This document shows, in pieces, positions 3,894 through 21,290 of a DNA stretch of 22,182 nucleotides. Source of the DNA: a virus. The notes under the pieces were generated by a model that saw only the letters and a program-made list of their open reading frames with translations, made no database searches and was not told where the DNA came from. The stretch covers positions 1-22,182 of the IMG/VR virus record IMGVR_UViG_3300044640_001542; one strand, 5' to 3'. Position 1 is the stretch's first letter. Each line of letters opens with the position of its first letter. The position numbers and the translations under genes are program-made.

Positions 3894-4196
3894 CTACGGT
3901 CTCGATGGCCATTGCGTCACATTCCACACAATGTTTTCGGTGATGTCTCGCAGTTCTTGACGATAGACGCGCCACGCTTCAACCTGCGCCTCGGTAAGTG
4001 TCACGTCGGGCAATTGCGTGTAATCAGAATTAACGAGCCTTAGATTGCGTTCTGTGCGAAGTGCGTCCATCGCTTCGGCTTCGGTGTACGGTCGCTCTTC
4101 GACGTCGGCACCGTCGGGCAATACTGCGTACTGCTCTCCGTACTCATCGAAGTATTCGTACGAGATCGCGACGGGGTTATAAATCCGGTAAATCAT
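3894..4196 (-). CDS. XkdW-like / tail-fibre-assembly-type small protein, 100 aa
   Basis: The C-terminal part reads TERNLRLVNSDYTQLPDVTL, then AWRVYRQELRDITENI. This pattern (RN-x-L-x-x-S-D-x-T-Q-L-P-D, then W-x-x-Y-R-Q-x-L-R-D-I) is typical of small proteins encoded at the end of phage tail modules, such as XkdW-like and tail-fibre assembly chaperone families. The N-terminus (MIYRIYNPVAISYEYFDEYG) is variable in such proteins. The ATG overlaps the previous stop (ATGA). It is the last gene of the late unit. A chaperone role in fibre or tip assembly is inferred from family resemblance and place. Confidence 0.72.
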   Translation of the reverse strand: MIYRIYNPVAISYEYFDEYGEQYAVLPDGADVEERPYTEAEAMDALRTERNLRLVNSDYTQLPDVTLTEAQVEAWRVYRQELRDITENIVWNVTQWPSRP

Positions 4197-5785: not shown

Positions 5786-6682
5786 CTAAGCCCTGCTAAT
5801 CGAGAAACTAACACTAATTATTGTCTGAGAAGCTATGCTACTAAGAGACGATACGCGTACAACATCACCAACAGCAGTTATGTTTACAAATGCTGTATGC
5901 GTAATTTGATGCTCACCGGTTCCCGATGATGCTGCACGTGTAAGGTTTACAAAAGCGCCGTTTACTGTTATGCCCAATATACGATTGCCTGTTGTGCCTG
6001 TTCCAAATTGACCAAAACCCGAAACGAGATACAGTCCAGTACGACGCACCGTGATTTCACCATTCGTCGTATTGACACTGAAAATCTTGTCATTACTCAC
6101 AGATGATGCGGAATATGTACCAGGTATATAAAACGTATTGGCAAGGGTAAGCGTCGCTGACCCACCGGTCATAAATGCATAGGATTGGTACGGTAACTGT
6201 GTCGTCGTGCCATACATTGCATACGATGGTGTGACTCCAGTGATAACCGCGCCAGCCACAATAACCGTACCAAGTAGTACATATGTCTGACCGGATAACT
6301 GCGCATCGGTTGCAACGACAAGCCGCACGGAGTAGGCGCCAATCGTTGTACCCGCGACGCTCCGCGATACGGTCAACGCTCCTGCGGTGTCGTTAACGAG
6401 GATTGCCACGTTGTAGGTAGCATTGGCCAGCGTTGACAATACGATGTTTTCCGACGCGGTGTTCTCGTAGAAGAAACCACCAACGACCGCAGCGCCGTCT
6501 TGGATGGTCAGCGTGCCTCCGCTGTTCGTCATGGTAAACAAATTGCCGACCTGGAGAACGCCGTTGCTCAGTGTCTTGGTTTCCATTGCGGTCAGTCGTG
6601 AGGATGCATAGCCCGCGCCGACGTTACCATCGCCAAACCCTGCGCCCGTTCCCGTCGCCATTCCCAAAGATTGCTCAGCCAT
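5786..6682 (-). CDS. Tail-tip protein with C-terminal C1q-like domain, 298 aa
   Basis: Encoded between Dit and the hub. Residues 1-35 are Gly/Ala-rich (MAEQSLGMATGTGAGFGDGN). Residues about 35-160 form repetitive beta strands with many small residues, typical of baseplate or fibre shafts. The last 100 residues (NGEITVRRTGLYLVSGFGQF, then GNRILGITVNGAFVNLTRAA) have the G-x-Y-x-V-x-G pattern and closing hydrophobic strands of a C1q/TNF-like jelly roll. A role in receptor binding or tip assembly is inferred. Start ATG with GGAG about 9 nt upstream. The low charge and high Ser/Thr/Gly/Val fit a secreted virion part. Confidence 0.68.
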   Translation of the reverse strand: MAEQSLGMATGTGAGFGDGNVGAGYASSRLTAMETKTLSNGVLQVGNLFTMTNSGGTLTIQDGAAVVGGFFYENTASENIVLSTLANATYNVAILVNDTAGALTVSRSVAGTTIGAYSVRLVVATDAQLSGQTYVLLGTVIVAGAVITGVTPSYAMYGTTTQLPYQSYAFMTGGSATLTLANTFYIPGTYSASSVSNDKIFSVNTTNGEITVRRTGLYLVSGFGQFGTGTTGNRILGITVNGAFVNLTRAASSGTGEHQITHTAFVNITAVGDVVRVSSLSSIASQTIISVSFSISRA

Positions 6683-9363: not shown

Positions 9364-9761
9364 TTACTTCCTTCGCTCGCGTACCTTGCGTTCGATTTGC
9401 ATCATGACCAAGTCTTCTTGAATGACTCGCCATGGTACCGCTTCGAGTTCCGTAGGTGTGCAGTGGTACACATCGCGACACATAACGAGCCGTATATATT
9501 CCATTGGCGCTTCTTCGCCCACCCAAAGGTGAGCGCTGAGCGCCGTTCTTAGTTTCCCAGTGATGGCGACAACGAACCAAGCACGGCTTTGACGATTGAC
9601 GGAAAGTGTTTCGCCGGAATGTCTTCAAAGTCGCCCTCGGTAACGGTGACGCACTTGCGCAGGATCGCAACGGTGACACTGAGGTCATCTTTGCCCGCCT
9701 GCAGTTTGACCAAGTCGCCAATGGTCAATTTCGAATCGTCTACGGTGTATTCATGTGACAT
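9364..9761 (-). CDS. Tail assembly chaperone fusion (gpG-T type) made by -1 frameshift, 132 aa
   Basis: The product reads the 70 codons of the short chaperone, slips back one base at the heptamer at 9552-9558 and continues from codon CTA (9552-9550) to a TAA at 9366-9364. The 62 extra residues (LRTALSAHLWVGEEAPMEYI, ending MQIERKVRERRK) are protein-like, have no start of their own, and fill the gap between the short chaperone and the tape measure. In lambda the matching gpGT fusion recruits tail-tube protein to the tape measure. The arrangement and slip site match that system; use of the site is inferred. Confidence 0.82.
9549..9761 (-). CDS. Tail assembly chaperone, short form (gpG-like), 70 aa
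   Basis: A small acidic/helical protein between the major tail protein and the tape measure, the standard place for the gpG-like chaperone. It begins MSHEYTVDDSKLTIGDLVKL and ends PSIVKAVLGSLSPSLGN. AAAGGAG lies about 9 nt before the ATG. The terminal codons GGA AAC before TAA, with the preceding G, form the slip heptamer that gives the longer product. The short form is expected to coat the tape measure during assembly and is absent from the finished virion. Confidence 0.85.
   Translation of the reverse strand: MSHEYTVDDSKLTIGDLVKLQAGKDDLSVTVAILRKCVTVTEGDFEDIPAKHFPSIVKAVLGSLSPSLGN
9552..9558 (-). promoter_or_regulatory. Programmed -1 ribosomal frameshift site GGGAAAC
   Basis: In the zero frame it reads G GGA AAC TAA, a canonical X-XXY-YYZ heptamer closely like lambda's GGGAAAG. 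It sits directly before the stop of the short chaperone. Downstream on the mRNA are a GCGC-TCA-GCGC hairpin (9533-9543, 8 nt past the site) and an alternative 7-bp stem with a 4-nt loop (9517-9534), which share two bases. Either could stimulate slipping. Confidence 0.85.
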
Positions 9762-9803
9762 GTGGGGTGTCTCCTTTGTAGAAATTGTGTGGGGCTAAAT
9801 GTT

Positions 9804-9837
9804 GGCACGCGGTCACGCCCCACCATGACCGCACGCC
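9804..9837. other. Hairpin between major tail protein and chaperone genes
   Basis: The arms GCGGTCA (9809-9815) and TGACCGC (9826-9832) form a 7-bp stem, extended by three outer pairs across two mismatches. No T run follows. Placed just after the abundant tail-tube gene, it may stabilise that mRNA end or lower readthrough. Confidence 0.42.
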
Positions 9838-11597: not shown

Positions 11598-13193
11598 CTA
11601 AGCGTGGACGCCGACTGCGAACGCTTCGATTTGGGTCACGTCGCCACCGTAGCGCCATGAAGCGACGATGTAGGTCAAGCCCTTGCGCACGTCGCGCCAT
11701 CGCTCAATCTGGACACCGCTTGCGCGCTCGACAAATGCGTAGAACGAGTAGTTGCCGAAGATAATCGACTTGTTGGTCGTGGCAATCGCTGGGATTTGCG
11801 CCGACAACATCACCGGCCAACCTTCGACCGTGCGCTGACCGTTCACGGTGTCCGTGATGCGGTTGTAGTTGGTCAGGTCGAGGGTCTTCAATGCGCCCCA
11901 AGTGGAGTTCTGCATAATGAAGCCGGTTTCACCGTTGGTCAGGTATTCGCCTGCAACGTCGGTGCTGAGCCCGACAATCTGCGCGTTGGTGATTGCCGTT
12001 GCGCTGAATGCGAAGGTGTTGGTGATTCGTGGCAACAAACCCCAAGGCTGCGAAGAACCGGTACCGTTGACGATGTAGTTGTTGGCGCTGACTGCCATTG
12101 CCCGTGCGATTTCGTTCTGCAGGAACTCTTCGAGGTTTGACGAGGTATCGGCCATCAACTCATCCGACAAAGCGAATTCGAGGGTGTCTTTGTAGAGTTG
12201 GATGGTCTTCGAGTTGGCGAGGTTTGGCTCGCTGGCTGTTGCGGTCACACCTTCGGCAACGATTCCGGGAGTTGCCTTGGTGCTCTGCGCAGGCATAATG
12301 TGCTTCCAAGATTCCGTGGTGACACGAGTGAAACCAATTTGACCCAAGAACGAGAGTTCGTCACGACGTGCCGTGATGGTGCGGTTGATGGTCGTTGGAA
12401 CGGTGAAACCGCCGTCGTTGTTCGTTGCTTCGGTCAGTGTCTTCGTTGCTGACTTTTTGGCGTTGTGCAAGGTGTTCATCACCGATGCATCGTCGCTGCC
12501 ACGCATGAACGATTTGTACGCCTGGTGGTACTCGTTGGTGTCAAATGGGCTCACTGATTCGACCGCAGCCGGTGCTGCCTTCATTGCTGGTCCGCTGTGG
12601 ATCGTGCCGCCTGCGACGGGTTCGCCTGCGAGCTCGCTGATTGCAGCCTTGACTGCGTCCTTGATGTTTTCCATGGTGTGTTGTGTTTCCTCTGTAGATA
12701 CTGCGGTTTTGATATCGTCATGACCGGTGTTCGCTGCCGCAGTGCGCACAGTGGTTCCCTTGGTCGAGACTTCGGTAGTGGTTCGGGGTTCCGCTGGGGT
12801 TGGGGTCAGTGAGATTTCACCGACGACCCATCGCTTGATTTCGCCGTCGACGCGTTCAACGAGGTGAGGCAATGCGCCGGTCGAGAGACCAAGTGCGCCT
12901 TGCTCCGCGAGCTTCATCACGTCGGCTGCGTATTTGTGCCTGCGGTCAAGTTCGATTTGCACATCGATACCGGTGTCGGTCGGTGTCCATACTTTGACCG
13001 TGCCAATCTGCGACTTTAAGCCTCCAAGTGCGTGGTCGTAGTAGACAGGCATCCCAACGAAGGGACGCGTACCGCCGAAGTCGGTGTCTTTGCTGAATCG
13101 GTCGCCGGTCAAATCCTCGCCACCGTAGACAACACCGGTGCCCTTAAGGGTGAACGGTGCGACGGCTTTGATAGCGTGTGGTGTTGACTTCAT
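11598..13193 (-). CDS. Prohead protease-major capsid protein fusion, 531 aa
   Basis: Residues 1-140 are an HK97-type prohead protease: GVVYGGEDLTGDRFSKDTDF, then His54 in VYYDHALGG and Ser104 in GALGLSTGALP, with the WVVGEISLTPTPAEP strand. Residues about 140-205 are a low-complexity linker/delta-like part. From about 205 the HK97-fold major capsid follows (SFMRGSDDASVMNTL, GGFTVPTTINRTITARRDEL, NYIVNGTGSSQPWGLLPRIT, NYSFYAFVERASGVQIERWR). Most phages code these as two genes; here there is no stop or start between them. Cleavage near the junction would free capsid during maturation. ATG start overlapping the previous stop (ATGA). Confidence 0.93.
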   Translation of the reverse strand: MKSTPHAIKAVAPFTLKGTGVVYGGEDLTGDRFSKDTDFGGTRPFVGMPVYYDHALGGLKSQIGTVKVWTPTDTGIDVQIELDRRHKYAADVMKLAEQGALGLSTGALPHLVERVDGEIKRWVVGEISLTPTPAEPRTTTEVSTKGTTVRTAAANTGHDDIKTAVSTEETQHTMENIKDAVKAAISELAGEPVAGGTIHSGPAMKAAPAAVESVSPFDTNEYHQAYKSFMRGSDDASVMNTLHNAKKSATKTLTEATNNDGGFTVPTTINRTITARRDELSFLGQIGFTRVTTESWKHIMPAQSTKATPGIVAEGVTATASEPNLANSKTIQLYKDTLEFALSDELMADTSSNLEEFLQNEIARAMAVSANNYIVNGTGSSQPWGLLPRITNTFAFSATAITNAQIVGLSTDVAGEYLTNGETGFIMQNSTWGALKTLDLTNYNRITDTVNGQRTVEGWPVMLSAQIPAIATTNKSIIFGNYSFYAFVERASGVQIERWRDVRKGLTYIVASWRYGGDVTQIEAFAVGVHA

Positions 13194-14119
13194 TTGACCC
13201 CCAGCAATCGACGTGCGAAGCGCTTTGTTGCTTCTTCGTTCATTGTCGCGGTGTTGTCAAGGGCTTTGTCTTCGTCGTCCATGTGTGCCGATGCGACGCC
13301 CTCTTCGACCGGCTCTTCGACCTCTGCGACGGCTTCCTCGGCCATCTCTTCGGCCATCTCTTCGACCATCTCTTCGGCTTCGGCTTCGACCGGTGCTTCA
13401 GCAATCAGTGCGGCCTCGGGAATAATCCAGAGCTTGCACAGTGCGTCTTCTTCGATGTCGCCTTCGACGATCTCGCATCGGTTGGCGAGGTAGAACACAC
13501 AGTTCTTGCACGCCATGCCTTCGGCCTTAAAGGGATTGCCTTCTGCGCCGATGTAGTGCGCACCGTTGGCACCGATGCCCTTGTCGAAAACACCGTACTC
13601 TTCAACGATGCTCTCGTACATGTCGTACATCACCACCTGACGCTCGTTGAGAATCGTTGATTCGTCGATTGCCTTGGTAGCGCTCTTTGGTTTCATGCCG
13701 TCATAGCCAACAGTACGAAGTGCCTTCATTGTTTCGCGATTGTGGTACGCCGCCATGCGTAGCGCTTCCATGTCGCTCTCGGAATGCCGACGTGATGCTT
13801 TGGTGCTCATGCTGTTCTCCTCTACAATACGACGTGCCCACGCACGCCCCTCATCGCCGCCCCATCCGTACCAAGCTTGCCACCCTTTGCCCTGCTCGTC
13901 CCACGTCTCACCCTCTTTGTCAATCTCGTGACGGTCGAAGTATGCAACCATGCGTCGCACCGTCTCGAAACTGACCGGCTCACGGTTGGCGAGTTGGTTC
14001 GCACGCGCCAAGCCGACCGGAGTCATGCCCTGCTGACTCGGTGGCTTCTCCGCACGCACATCGAGCGCACGCTGTGCATTGTCGGCGACCGCCTGCGGTG
14101 CGATATACGTCGCCTTCAT
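13190..14119 (-). CDS. XkdF-like head-associated protein with Cys cluster and acidic tail, 309 aa
   Basis: ATG at 14119 (MKATYIAPQAVADNAQRALD) with GGAG 5 nt upstream and an ATGA overlap. Three parts are seen. First, residues 1-100, a domain seen in phage structural regions, with GMTPVGLARANQLANREPVS, then RRMVAYFDRHEID and GKGWQAWYGWGGDEGRAWA. Second, a Cys motif (CKNCVFYLANRCEIVEGDIE, then ALCKLWIIPE) with four Cys, like the metal- or FeS-binding domain in XkdF-like proteins. Third, an acidic low-complexity stretch with EEMAEEMAEEAVAEVEEPVE. It lies between portal/gp10-like genes and the protease-capsid fusion, where scaffold or protease partners are coded. A scaffold-like role for the acidic part is inference. 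Confidence 0.7.
   Translation of the reverse strand: MKATYIAPQAVADNAQRALDVRAEKPPSQQGMTPVGLARANQLANREPVSFETVRRMVAYFDRHEIDKEGETWDEQGKGWQAWYGWGGDEGRAWARRIVEENSMSTKASRRHSESDMEALRMAAYHNRETMKALRTVGYDGMKPKSATKAIDESTILNERQVVMYDMYESIVEEYGVFDKGIGANGAHYIGAEGNPFKAEGMACKNCVFYLANRCEIVEGDIEEDALCKLWIIPEAALIAEAPVEAEAEEMVEEMAEEMAEEAVAEVEEPVEEGVASAHMDDEDKALDNTATMNEEATKRFARRLLGVK
13242..13265. repeat. 24-bp exact direct repeat, copy 1 (inside the XkdF-like gene)
   Basis: These 24 bases are identical to 19379-19402, about 6.1 kb away. This copy is coding: it spells part of KALDNTATMNEE near the C-terminus. The flanking base differs on each side, so the match ends exactly at 24. Confidence 0.85.
13340..13375. repeat. 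Three tandem 12-bp repeats in the XkdF-like gene
   Basis: The unit GGCCATCTCTTC occurs at 13340-13351 and 13352-13363, with a one-base variant at 13364-13375. On the coding strand it gives repeating EEMA/EEMV units in the acidic tail. The length is a multiple of three, so copy-number change would keep the frame. Confidence 0.8.
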
Positions 14120-14577
14120 AGTTTCTCCATTGCTTGCGCGACGAGCGCATTGAGACTGCCGTTGTTTTGTATGGTCTCCGCTGCATTGCCTGCGGTGTTC
14201 CATCGTCCTTTGTGAATATCCGCCTGCTGGTCTCCCACGACGTACGGAGCGTATGACGCGGCACTCTGTAGCACCGCATCATCGCCTTGCAAATCGACGC
14301 GATACGACCGGTTGAGCGCTTCGCTTCCCTTCAGCGTTGACCCGGTACCACGTTTGTATGGCACCGTGATGTTTCCGCGTCGTATGTTTGCCATGACAAA
14401 GCGCCGTTGCTTCTCTGACTTAAACTTCATCGAGCCAGCGCCAGGTGGCGGTGGCTTGTCTTCGTTTAACTGCCCCTGGACAAGCACCGCATAGCCCAGC
14501 GTGACGGTGCGTATCATCTCGCCAATCTGTGCCTCGCCGATGCGTCCGAGGATTTCCACGGTGATGCTGTTTGCCAT
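14116..14577 (-). CDS. HK97 gp10-like minor head-tail protein, 153 aa
   Basis: The frame is open upstream, but the ATG at 14577 (MANSITVEILGRIGEAQIGE) overlaps the portal stop (TGATG). The N-terminal helix is followed by a basic region (KFKSEKQRRFVMANIRRGNI) and then SAASYAPYVVGDQQADIHKG and RWNTAGNAAETI. The 'YA-x-YV-x-G-x-x-Q ... H-x-x-R-W' pattern is seen in HK97 gp10-like and neck proteins. It is coded earlier in the module than gp10 usually is, so an adaptor or minor capsid role is equally possible. Confidence 0.6.
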   Translation of the reverse strand: MANSITVEILGRIGEAQIGEMIRTVTLGYAVLVQGQLNEDKPPPPGAGSMKFKSEKQRRFVMANIRRGNITVPYKRGTGSTLKGSEALNRSYRVDLQGDDAVLQSAASYAPYVVGDQQADIHKGRWNTAGNAAETIQNNGSLNALVAQAMEKL

Positions 14578-16598
14578 CAGCGCACCAACCGCAGTGAGGT
14601 GTCGCATCGGCAATTGACGTGCGCAGGTGGACCCGCCGCAACTTCAGCGGGCCACTTGTCTTCAGTCAGTCCGTTCAACTGGACACCGTAGATTTTGCCT
14701 GTGCAGATTGCGCAGACTAACTCGTCCGCATCGGTATTCCACACCCGCACCATGTTGACGCCACGCTCTGCTAAGTAATCCTTGTACGACGTCGTTGCCT
14801 GCGATGCTGCGCGCGTCGTCTCCGTAATGGCTATCATCTTGGCGCGCACCGGGTCGCTCAGTGGCAACACCGCAGCGGTCACGTCCTGTATCGTCATACC
14901 CGGGGTTGTGCGAAACATCTCGATGATTGGCTTGATGCGGTTCGCCGTGGTTTCGTCGATGCGTGCAGTTTCGCGTGGTGTGTAATCAAGCAACCAATCT
15001 TGGATGTACCGCGACTGGTCATTGGTATCCATCGGGATGCTAAACTCTGTACTGAGCCGGTCGATGCGCTTGCCCATCGTCGTGCCCAGTTCCGAATCCA
15101 AGACCGGTTTGATAACTTCGCGCAACGATGTTTCCGGATCGCGCTCGTTGACGATGTCTTTGGCCCATTGCTCACCCTTTGCTCTCATCTCTTTGATGAT
15201 GCGGTTATAGATGCGCAGTTCATCCGGTGTCATGTCGTCAACCGGTGCCTTGACCGCGTGGATGACGTCGTGCACGTCTGCTACCGTCATGCCCTTGTAG
15301 CAGTGCGACATCACGGCATCGACGTGGTCAGCGGGTATCAGCGCAGAATCAAACGAGGTCTTCGGGTCTCGTCCGCTCTTAATTCTGCGCTCGATTTTTT
15401 TTGACAACAACGACCATTCATTGGCTACGGCTTTGGACGTGTTCGCCATGTCCGACGGTGCCGCGGTACCTGCGTCCGCTGGCGCTTCGACTGGTGTGGA
15501 CTCGGGAGCAACGAGGTCACCGGGCAGAATGACGTCGGCAATGCCGTCGTATCCGAGTATTTGCATAGCCGCCCGAAGCGGTACGCCTGCCTGTGTGAGT
15601 TGAAGCAACGAACCAGCACGCTGTGCCTCGTCCGCTTGCATGACGTCGAGTTGCTCCGGCATGAACTGGATTTCATACTTCAACGGCCCGAGTAGTTGCT
15701 CGTTCATGACGTCGGCTAACTTCGGCAACCGAGGTATTACGGTTTCGCGCCAAAACGATTGACGATCCGAATCTGCCGTCGCATAGTTCGCCGCCGATGC
15801 TTCAAGCATGGTCAGCGGTACGCCCATGGTCATTGCGATCTGCTTCAGCGTGCGCTCTGCTAATTCCGGCATCATCAACGTATTGATGTCTGGCGTAATC
15901 TTTTGCACCTTCAACTCTTGCGCTCGGACGAATATCCATTTGAACGCGTTCAACACACCGCTTCCGCGTTGGTTAATCTCAGCGCCCATCCGCTTGAACT
16001 CTGAATCATCCATCGAGTCGGGGAGGTTCATCACCGTTACTGGCTGCGCGCCACCTTCGAAGAACATCGACGTAAAGCGGTCAAGATTGTAGGATAACTG
16101 CGCGTTCTGCATAGCGACCTGCGCAGGTGCCAAGCCAGGCCCGACGTCGTCCGTAAATGAGTTTTCGCGGAAGTAGACAATCTCTTCGAGCGTCCACGGC
16201 CCGTACATCTTGCCGCCAATAACTTGGTTGAACGTGAGGCCCAAGTAGGGATTTTCCAGCGTGCCCAAGTTGGGATTGTATGCGTAGTTCACCGTGGTCG
16301 GGTTGAGCGCTTCGAAGCCGACCAACGTCCGTCCCTTGACGATGCGCACCCAATACGCCGCACCAGTCACAAGCAAACTGCGCTCCGTCGCTGCCAAGAG
16401 CCGAGAGAAATTCTTTTTCCACGGCCACTCGACTTCGACCCCGTTGCGAAGTAATCGATACGGCACCGAGCTGATCGCATCGGCTCGCAGTTCGACCGCA
16501 CGGTACAAAGGTGCGACGTGCGCATAGCCGACGTCAGCCGTCTTGATTGTTCCGTTCCGCAACAATTGACCCAGCCAAGCCGGGTTGTTCATGGTCAT
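14577..16598 (-). CDS. Portal-MuF fusion protein, 673 aa
   Basis: Start ATG at 16598 (MTMNNPAWLGQLLRNGTIKT), with GGAG 6 nt upstream and an ATGA overlap with the terminase. Residues 1 to about 370 are an HK97-type portal: YRAVELRADAISSVPYRLLR, the stem-region helix with NAQLSYNLDRFTSMFFEGGA, and GVPLTMLEASAANYATADSD. A short Ala/Pro/Ser linker follows. The last 220 residues are a MuF head-morphogenesis domain: MIAITETTRAASQATTSYKD, then NTDADELVCAICTGKIYGV, and the ending GPPAHVNCRCDTSLRLVR with the C-x-x-C and H-x-N-C-R-C motif. Portal forms the 12-mer vertex ring; MuF is a minor head protein placed with it. The fusion fixes a 1:1 ratio and places MuF at the portal vertex. Confidence 0.93.
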   Translation of the reverse strand: MTMNNPAWLGQLLRNGTIKTADVGYAHVAPLYRAVELRADAISSVPYRLLRNGVEVEWPWKKNFSRLLAATERSLLVTGAAYWVRIVKGRTLVGFEALNPTTVNYAYNPNLGTLENPYLGLTFNQVIGGKMYGPWTLEEIVYFRENSFTDDVGPGLAPAQVAMQNAQLSYNLDRFTSMFFEGGAQPVTVMNLPDSMDDSEFKRMGAEINQRGSGVLNAFKWIFVRAQELKVQKITPDINTLMMPELAERTLKQIAMTMGVPLTMLEASAANYATADSDRQSFWRETVIPRLPKLADVMNEQLLGPLKYEIQFMPEQLDVMQADEAQRAGSLLQLTQAGVPLRAAMQILGYDGIADVILPGDLVAPESTPVEAPADAGTAAPSDMANTSKAVANEWSLLSKKIERRIKSGRDPKTSFDSALIPADHVDAVMSHCYKGMTVADVHDVIHAVKAPVDDMTPDELRIYNRIIKEMRAKGEQWAKDIVNERDPETSLREVIKPVLDSELGTTMGKRIDRLSTEFSIPMDTNDQSRYIQDWLLDYTPRETARIDETTANRIKPIIEMFRTTPGMTIQDVTAAVLPLSDPVRAKMIAITETTRAASQATTSYKDYLAERGVNMVRVWNTDADELVCAICTGKIYGVQLNGLTEDKWPAEVAAGPPAHVNCRCDTSLRLVR

Positions 16599-17068
16599 GC
16601 AAAACTCCATTCTACGCGTGGCTTCGATATCATTGCGACCGCACCGCTGGCCGCGTCTACGTAGTCGTCATGCGGTGCGCTGGGGAAGGCGACGACCTCA
16701 TCGAGAAAGTCCCGCACCCAAGCACCGTTCACCAAGACCACGGCTCCGGCTTCGGCTCTGGCGGCCCAAGGCATAGCTCGTTGGACTTTGTCGCCCTTGA
16801 CGTCAATACCTTTGAACGACACGTCGGCAATCTCTGGGATGCGTCGCAACTCTTGGGTCGCAGCGAGTCCGTGCTGTGCTTTCTCGATGCCGTGCGTCGT
16901 GTCCTTCTCACGTCGCATCGTGTCCACCATGATGCGTCGTACATCGGGCCACTCCGCTTTCACTTTGATACCGTCGGCAATATAGAACACGCCGTCGTGT
17001 AAACACACACGGACGGACGCGGTATAGTCTGCGCGCCGTGTGGTCTGACGTCGGTCGTCTTCAGCCAA
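16595..17068 (-). pseudogene. terL: Large terminase, C-terminal nuclease part in a second frame
   Basis: This open frame (TTG at 17068 as the first possible start) carries the end of the terminase: ADYTASVRV and FYIADGIKVKAEWPDVRRIM strands, IEKAQHG with the expected acidic residue, KGDKVQRAMPWAARAEAGAV, and HDDYVDAASGAV with the metal-binding Asp pair. What normally precedes DYTA, a strand ending W-D-x-A-A-T with the first catalytic Asp, is in neither frame. It overlaps the N-terminal frame by 109 bp, and homology seems to switch at about 17029-17040. I read this as a deletion with frame change in one original terL gene. A variant population or assembly error is the main alternative. Confidence 0.72.
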
Positions 17069-17706
17069 TGGCGCTGGAACATTGCGCCGACCGGGTCGAT
17101 GAAATCACCATCGACTTCTTGTCGGTACATCTCAGACGTCATCGACTCTTTCAACGTCTCGACAAAGGTGTCATCAAGAAACACGTTATCCGTCGTCTTG
17201 CTTCGGATCGTGGCGTAGTCTTTGTGCGTGCCTGCGAAGAGTTGATACACCCAATCTTTGCCGCGTGGTGTTGTCGACATCCAAGCTCGACCGGGTTGCT
17301 CGCGCAACGTCGCAATGGACAACGGCCAAATGTCGCTGTCCATCATGGCGACCTCGTCCAACCAAAGCCACCCGGCGTTGGCGCCACGGAGCCGGTCGGG
17401 GTTGTCCGCACTGCGAAAGATGATGCGACGGTCACCAAGCAATCGAAGTTCCATATCTGACTTATTCCACGACGTCGCAATGCCTGCCTTCGCGACCAAG
17501 CGTAGGATGGTCTCCATGGCGCCAAGTTTGAGCATTGGGTATGTCGGTGCCACGATGAGCCCCGTGGAGCCCTTGGGCTGTCTCAGTGCCTCCACTGCTC
17601 CTGCTCGTGTCTTACCGCTGCCACGACCACCGACGAACAGACGAAACCGCGCGTCACTTGCCCAAAACGCTCTTTGGGGTGACGTCTGTGATTGGTGTCG
17701 GATCAT
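16960..17706 (-). CDS. terL: Large terminase, N-terminal ATPase part (frame ends early), 248 aa
   Basis: The packaging ATPase. Walker A GGRGSGKT is at residues 26-33, Walker B LWLDE at 114-118 and the coupling motif STTPRG at 144-149. Homology continues to FIDPVGAMFQRHWLKTTDV (about residue 220); the last 25-30 residues (IPRPSVCVYTTACSIL) look like out-of-frame sequence before a stop. The ATG at 17706 (MIRHQSQTSPQRAFWASDAR) overlaps the small terminase by 53 bp; ORF extension upstream is not protein-like. The usual TerL is 400-500 aa, so this half alone would lack the nuclease. Confidence 0.88.
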   Translation of the reverse strand: MIRHQSQTSPQRAFWASDARFRLFVGGRGSGKTRAGAVEALRQPKGSTGLIVAPTYPMLKLGAMETILRLVAKAGIATSWNKSDMELRLLGDRRIIFRSADNPDRLRGANAGWLWLDEVAMMDSDIWPLSIATLREQPGRAWMSTTPRGKDWVYQLFAGTHKDYATIRSKTTDNVFLDDTFVETLKESMTSEMYRQEVDGDFIDPVGAMFQRHWLKTTDVRPHGAQTIPRPSVCVYTTACSILPTVSK

Positions 17707-18097
17707 CAGCGGTGAGGTCGATGACGTAGTCGTTGGGGCCTGTAGTGGAGTGTACATTGTAGGATTCTCTGTAGCTCGGGTCGAGCTTCTTTAGCAGGAA
17801 CATCACCATCACCGGCGTCGTTGGCGCCATGCTGTACGCCAAGGATTCGAGGAACTCTTGGCGCACTTCGCGACCGCGTCGGGTCGCCTCTTCCACCTTC
17901 GCAGCGAACACCGGGTCGGCATCGCGTGCACGGAGTAGGTCGCGCCGGTTGATGTTGCACACCTTGCACGCATCCGTCATAAAACCAAGTCGCTCGATGG
18001 CTTCCAAGACTTCCACCTGTTGCAACTTGGTTATGATTGCCGGTTGTGCCTCGCTTTTGACGACGGCCTGCGCACGTGGCTTCTTTGGCGCAGTCAA
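17654..18097 (-). CDS. terS: Small terminase subunit, 147 aa, TTG start
   Basis: It lies directly before the ATPase gene. The N-terminal part is basic (MTAPKKPRAQAVVKSEAQPA); then a helix-turn-helix-like region, VEVLEAIERLGFMTDACKVC followed by NINRRDLLRARDADPVFAAK, matches the pattern of small terminases that bind pac/cos DNA. Next come a helical oligomerisation part (EEATRRGREVRQEFLESLAY) and a C-terminal tail. No ATG is available in frame; a TTG overlapping the holin-like stop has AAAGGA 9 nt upstream, which decides the start. It should form the ring that recognises the genome end and loads TerL. Confidence 0.82.
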   Translation of the reverse strand: MTAPKKPRAQAVVKSEAQPAIITKLQQVEVLEAIERLGFMTDACKVCNINRRDLLRARDADPVFAAKVEEATRRGREVRQEFLESLAYSMAPTTPVMVMFLLKKLDPSYRESYNVHSTTGPNDYVIDLTADDPTPITDVTPKSVLGK

Positions 18098-20802: not shown

Positions 20803-21180
20803 TTAATCGTCGTACTCGTCTTTGTATCGCCGACGTGCTGCTAATTCGTCTTCGTGAGGTATTCTCGTAATATCGCATCCATACGGTTGTCCTTGGGCCC
20901 AACAATAGTTGAAAAACATTCTCCAGCTTGGATACTCTCCATGCAATGGCCTTACATACCGCCAATCACCATTGATACGCAAATACAACGATGCGTCGTA
21001 AATTGTCACAGAATTATTGTCGCCTTCGATACGAGGATACCCATCGAAATATCGCAATACAACAATGGCATCTTTGCATTGAAGCGCCAAATAAGCAGGG
21101 TATCCCAACACGTGCCTTGGCTCATCCCCCAGCCATGCCACGTACGCGTTATGCCACTGGCTATAGATTTTCGGTGTCAT
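20803..21180 (-). CDS. Hypothetical protein, 125 aa
   Basis: ATG at 21180 (MTPKIYSQWHNAYVAWLGDE), with GGAGG 5 nt upstream, overlapping the small gene before it (ATGA). The protein is aromatic-rich, with the segments YPAYLALQCKDAIVVLRYFD and NSVTIYDASLYLRINGDWRY, and ends in an acidic/basic helix (HEDELAARRRYKDEYDD). No membrane segment and no recognised motif. Confidence 0.68.
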   Translation of the reverse strand: MTPKIYSQWHNAYVAWLGDEPRHVLGYPAYLALQCKDAIVVLRYFDGYPRIEGDNNSVTIYDASLYLRINGDWRYVRPLHGEYPSWRMFFNYCWAQGQPYGCDITRIPHEDELAARRRYKDEYDD

Positions 21181-21290
21181 TCCCACCTCCATAATTCAAT
21201 TCGTTGTTTACGCACCCGCTGCATAACATCAACAACTCGCATTTTTTCCAGAATCGTCGCCAGTAAAATACTGTTGTCAGACGCTGCCAT
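21177..21290 (-). CDS. Possible small protein, 37 aa
   Basis: Reading from ATG 21290 gives MAASDNSILLATILEKMRVV and onward, ending IELWRWE, with the stop overlapping the next start (ATGA). It fills the gap between the transglycosylase-like gene and the 125-aa gene. The predicted product is a short basic amphipathic helix. No clear SD (only A-rich sequence), so it is a moderate-confidence gene. Confidence 0.42.
   Translation of the reverse strand: MAASDNSILLATILEKMRVVDVMQRVRKQRIELWRWE

Follow-up and report, generated by a model that had tools for sequence, protein, structure and literature searches.

A 46-bp gap that splits the large terminase gene of an environmental phage contig is probably an assembly error

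The window analysed here is the entire 22,182-base virus record IMGVR_UViG_3300044640_001542, obtained from an environmental sample and possibly a fragment, in which head, tail, and packaging genes sit on the minus strand. The large terminase gene (terL) runs on this strand from 17757 to 16595 and is broken at about 17031-17037. Its start is overlapped by a candidate for the small terminase subunit (17654-17980, minus strand), an intact open reading frame (ORF) of 108 amino acids that is 99% identical to a 108-amino acid ORF in relatives, and the longer ORF at 17654-18097 shows a weak match to the PHROG terminase small subunit. The next gene after terL is intact and encodes the portal protein (14577-16610, minus strand), where the portal and a Mu F-like head morphogenesis part at its C terminus are apparently fused in one 677-amino acid ORF.

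The N-terminal ATPase half of TerL is a 265-amino acid ORF (16960-17757, minus strand) ending at a stop at 16960, and its last ~23 codons lie past the junction and are out of frame. Up to the junction, this half is intact, as the sequence-only reading had described: GGRGSGKT (Walker A), LWLDE, and STTPRG are all present, giving the Walker A, Walker B, and coupling motifs of the ATPase domain of a large terminase (Terminase_6N plus Terminase_6C), and Pfam matches are obtained to Terminase_6N (5e-19) and Terminase_3 (3e-14). The C-terminal half, reading from DYTASVRV to HDDYVDAA, follows in the other frame from about 17035 (17032) to 16595 on the minus strand. It contains an RNase H-like nuclease domain matching Terminase_6C (4e-8) over profile positions 9-154 of 155, with positions 1-8 missing, as compared with positions 2-154 in an intact relative. 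The two domains are not joined in a single frame, since the frames differ across a gap of 46 bp; this had been noticed before, and every point of that earlier description open to a check by sequence held up. In addition, around the junction the two open frames overlap by ~139 nucleotides.

A scan of viral contigs identified 80 loci with related TerL genes, and alignment to the 20 closest of these (L002-L021, 80-92% nucleotide identity), the kind of comparison already proposed for sizing the loss, gives exactly 46 bp (3 × 15 + 1), in agreement with the earlier claim that the lost bases are not divisible by three. The deletion junction on the minus strand has 2 bp of homology at its ends, leaving the deletion point ambiguous by 2 bases within plus-strand coordinates 17031-17037. 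TerL is a single 402-codon frame in these 20 relatives, except in L011, which reaches its contig end, and L021, which has a break of its own. Across all 80 related loci, the gene is either one open frame or cut by a contig end, with the separate 40-bp break of L021 as the sole exception, and the break in the window is therefore not due to chance. A homologue with the same two-frame layout and no W-D-x-A motif was found at none of these loci, the L021 break being a different one. The possibility of a junction common to other contigs was rejected, as the junction 22-mer of the window is absent from every other viral contig. For the window, searches from which very close records may have been withheld revealed no intact sister contig that is nearly identical, which is weak evidence, the nearest flanks being 94-97% identical. 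The 60 bp of terL just past the junction (16963-17022) are 99.7% conserved among relatives whose overall identity is 80-92%; an ultraconserved packaging or homing site was considered here and dropped, as the invariant runs are no longer than elsewhere in terL.

The missing 46 bases encode KWFRYWDLASSVKQSA or a close variant, corresponding to about residues 242-257, and the lost residues include W248 and D249, which are invariant across 14 diverse aligned relatives. While 14 of the 14 relatives have the first catalytic Asp in the W-D-x-A motif of strand 1, it is found in neither frame of the window, confirming what had been noted from the letters alone, and the core of the missing piece (WFRYWD) occurs nowhere else in the window even when 3 mismatches are allowed. 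In sequence searches against PDB, it was mainly the ATPase half that was covered, and the nuclease half needed a fold search. The structure model of an intact relative is reliable only for residues from ~230 onward, and within this part the nuclease domain is well predicted and resembles solved TerL nucleases, e.g., that of phage G20c (PDB 5m1o). According to the model, the lost stretch is the predicted first strand (residues 244-252) of the RNase H fold, carrying D249 as the putative first metal-binding Asp.

What remains of the gene closely follows its relatives. Comparison with five relatives gave dN/dS values of 0.05-0.08 for the ATPase half and 0.04-0.12 for the nuclease half, with only two amino acid changes private to the TerL of the window. 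Judged from these substitution patterns, the broken terL is otherwise under strong purifying selection and not decaying. The other conserved genes of the window that were tested against relatives are intact, and no stray single-base frameshifts were found in the window relative to them. Since dN/dS is 0.04-0.12, the other conserved genes are intact, and neither a tyrosine integrase nor a close relative in bacterial genomes turned up, the break is either very recent or not real.

Several other features of the window were inspected. The gene at 13190-14119 (minus strand), between the portal and capsid genes, has a 5' end 140 bp shorter than in most relatives, with a new ATG, arising from a substitution unseen in the relatives aligned there, that overlaps the upstream TGA; this short-form junction is also private to the window. 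A second assembly deletion was rejected at this site, as the frame is kept, the ATG overlaps the TGA, and L013 has a natural short form. The L013 form differs, and the N-terminus of this gene was apparently lost on more than one occasion. A split gene at 9549-9826 was also rejected, as the additional match falls before the start common to the relatives and, read from its ATG, the ORF agrees with theirs. After it comes a second ORF that overlaps it in a different frame, an arrangement that is usual for tail chaperone genes. Upstream of a thymidylate synthase-like gene, ~460 bp (20807-21263) are absent from the closest relatives, whose N-terminal coding sequence partly resembles a stretch beyond these bases. 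Finally, the major capsid protein (11598-13193, minus strand) matches Phage_capsid only from residue 261, and its first 260 residues, which have no assignment, may represent a scaffold or protease part fused to it.

Private deletions resembling that of the window occur in related contigs. A frame-break survey of ten conserved genes in related IMG/VR contigs, covering about 0.49 Mb with some contigs counted twice, revealed only three breaks, i.e., those in terL of the window, in terL of L021 (40 bp, at position 979), and in the tape measure gene of L120 (109-110 bp, at 4013). A matching scan for in-frame private losses identified 63 bp in the portal gene of L044 (at 4269), 60 bp in the portal gene of L058 (at 3395), and 39 bp in the tape measure gene of L090 (at 1438). 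Junction homology is 0-1 bp in these five deletions of 39-110 bp and 2 bp in the window. The frame is kept in three of the five and broken in two, which together with the window gives three kept of six, close to the one third expected if deletions were blind to frame, six being too few for firm statistics on frame bias. Apart from its deletion, L021 is 100% identical to L017, which lacks the deletion, over 4.7 kb (flanks of 979 and 3753 bases). At the L058 site, identity to the neighbor L055 falls from 100% to 93%, and at the L120 site, identity to L110 climbs from 97.7% to 100%; L120 also shows another shortening of ~142 bp at 6586 relative to L110, its 99.9% identical neighbor. At the window junction, nearest-neighbor identity is 93.7% to the left and 97.3% to the right, a modest change. 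The five private deletions in sister contigs are likely assembly joins, although the in-frame losses may be natural variants.

Taken together, the comparable gaps of sister contigs suggest that the loss in the window arose during assembly, and the 46-bp gap is probably an assembly error in an ordinary tailed-phage terL. Strain microdiversity is known to cause fragmented and chimeric contigs as well as indel errors in de Bruijn assembly of viral metagenomes (PMC11443906). Here, the assembler would have linked two sequence ends over a stretch that varies between strains, dropping the 46 bp between them. The identity of L021 and L017, the identity shifts at L058 and L120, and losses without regard to frame are the marks of mixed-strain joining errors and favor this explanation; the frame-blind pattern fits joining in strain-mixed short-read assembly. 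Yet, illegitimate recombination too can give junctions of 0-2 bp, and left/right identity shifts arise from phage mosaicism anyway. On the assembly-error reading, the phage itself probably has an intact TerL. Among the causes suggested in the sequence-only reading, the best supported is thus an error of assembly from a population of mixed strains, while the part of the suggestion that placed the error at a repeat did not hold, as homology at the junction amounts to only 2 bp and no repeat is therefore involved.

The strongest competitor, which is nevertheless rather unlikely, is a real and very recent 46-bp deletion that left the phage without a packaging nuclease of its own, making it a dead end or dependent on packaging by the TerL of co-infecting siblings. 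Such a deletion would still show purifying selection, agrees with a sequence that is clean elsewhere and free of stray single-base frameshifts, and is compatible with illegitimate recombination at a 2-bp junction. However, a lethal allele would have to dominate the sample to be assembled, the break is common to no other contig, and L021 has a like break yet is identical to its intact sister contig. That a terminase-null genome truly dominated the sample, as a cheater packaged by the TerL of co-infecting relatives, is very improbable. A prophage in decay whose packaging gene is dead, also among the earlier suggestions, has even less in its favor: the terL break would fit, and some contigs from bacterial genome bins carry TerL-like genes with 31-42% identity, yet neither host flanks nor a tyrosine integrase, the only type searched for, was found in the window, and the latter was likewise missing from 14 sister contigs, the window and these contigs all being likely fragments. 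Only remote relatives were found among 84,980 bacterial and archaeal genomes, no other conserved gene of the window is broken, and selection is not relaxed; the prophage proposal is considered unlikely because an integrase of this type, close relatives in cellular genomes, and relaxed selection are all absent. Least probable of all is a split terminase that works, or recoding over the overlap of the frames, as nothing supports it beyond that overlap: a frame shift would still leave strand 1 and D249 missing, the matching Asp is indispensable in G20c TerL (PMC5389553), none of the relatives shows this layout, and the motif core is nowhere else in the window.

Within this phage group, several IMG/VR contigs have short private deletions of ~40-110 bp, which can mimic pseudogenes or split genes. 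When a lone metagenomic contig has a broken hallmark gene, the gene should be compared with sister contigs before a biological reading is made.

Among known systems, the RuvC/RNase H-like fold of the TerL nuclease of Thermus phage G20c / P74-26 (PDB 5m1o and 5tge) matches the prediction for the intact relative. In G20c TerL, the metal-coordinating residue D294 is indispensable (PMC5389553), and from fold order and motif, D249 of the intact relatives should be its counterpart; compared with G20c TerL, the copy in the window lacks strand 1 and the residue that should correspond to D294. L021 (IMGVR_UViG_3300008107_007974) resembles the window in having a private, frame-breaking deletion in the nuclease half of terL, but its 40-bp deletion affects codons ~325-337 and its sister L017 is intact and otherwise identical. 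Finally, L002 (IMGVR_UViG_3300044643_001116) shares with the window the order of the terL, portal, and small terminase genes, and its TerL is 98% identical both in the ATPase part (residues 1-243) and in the nuclease part. Unlike the window, which is 46 bp shorter here, L002 encodes TerL as 402 codons in one frame and keeps the W-D-L-A strand.
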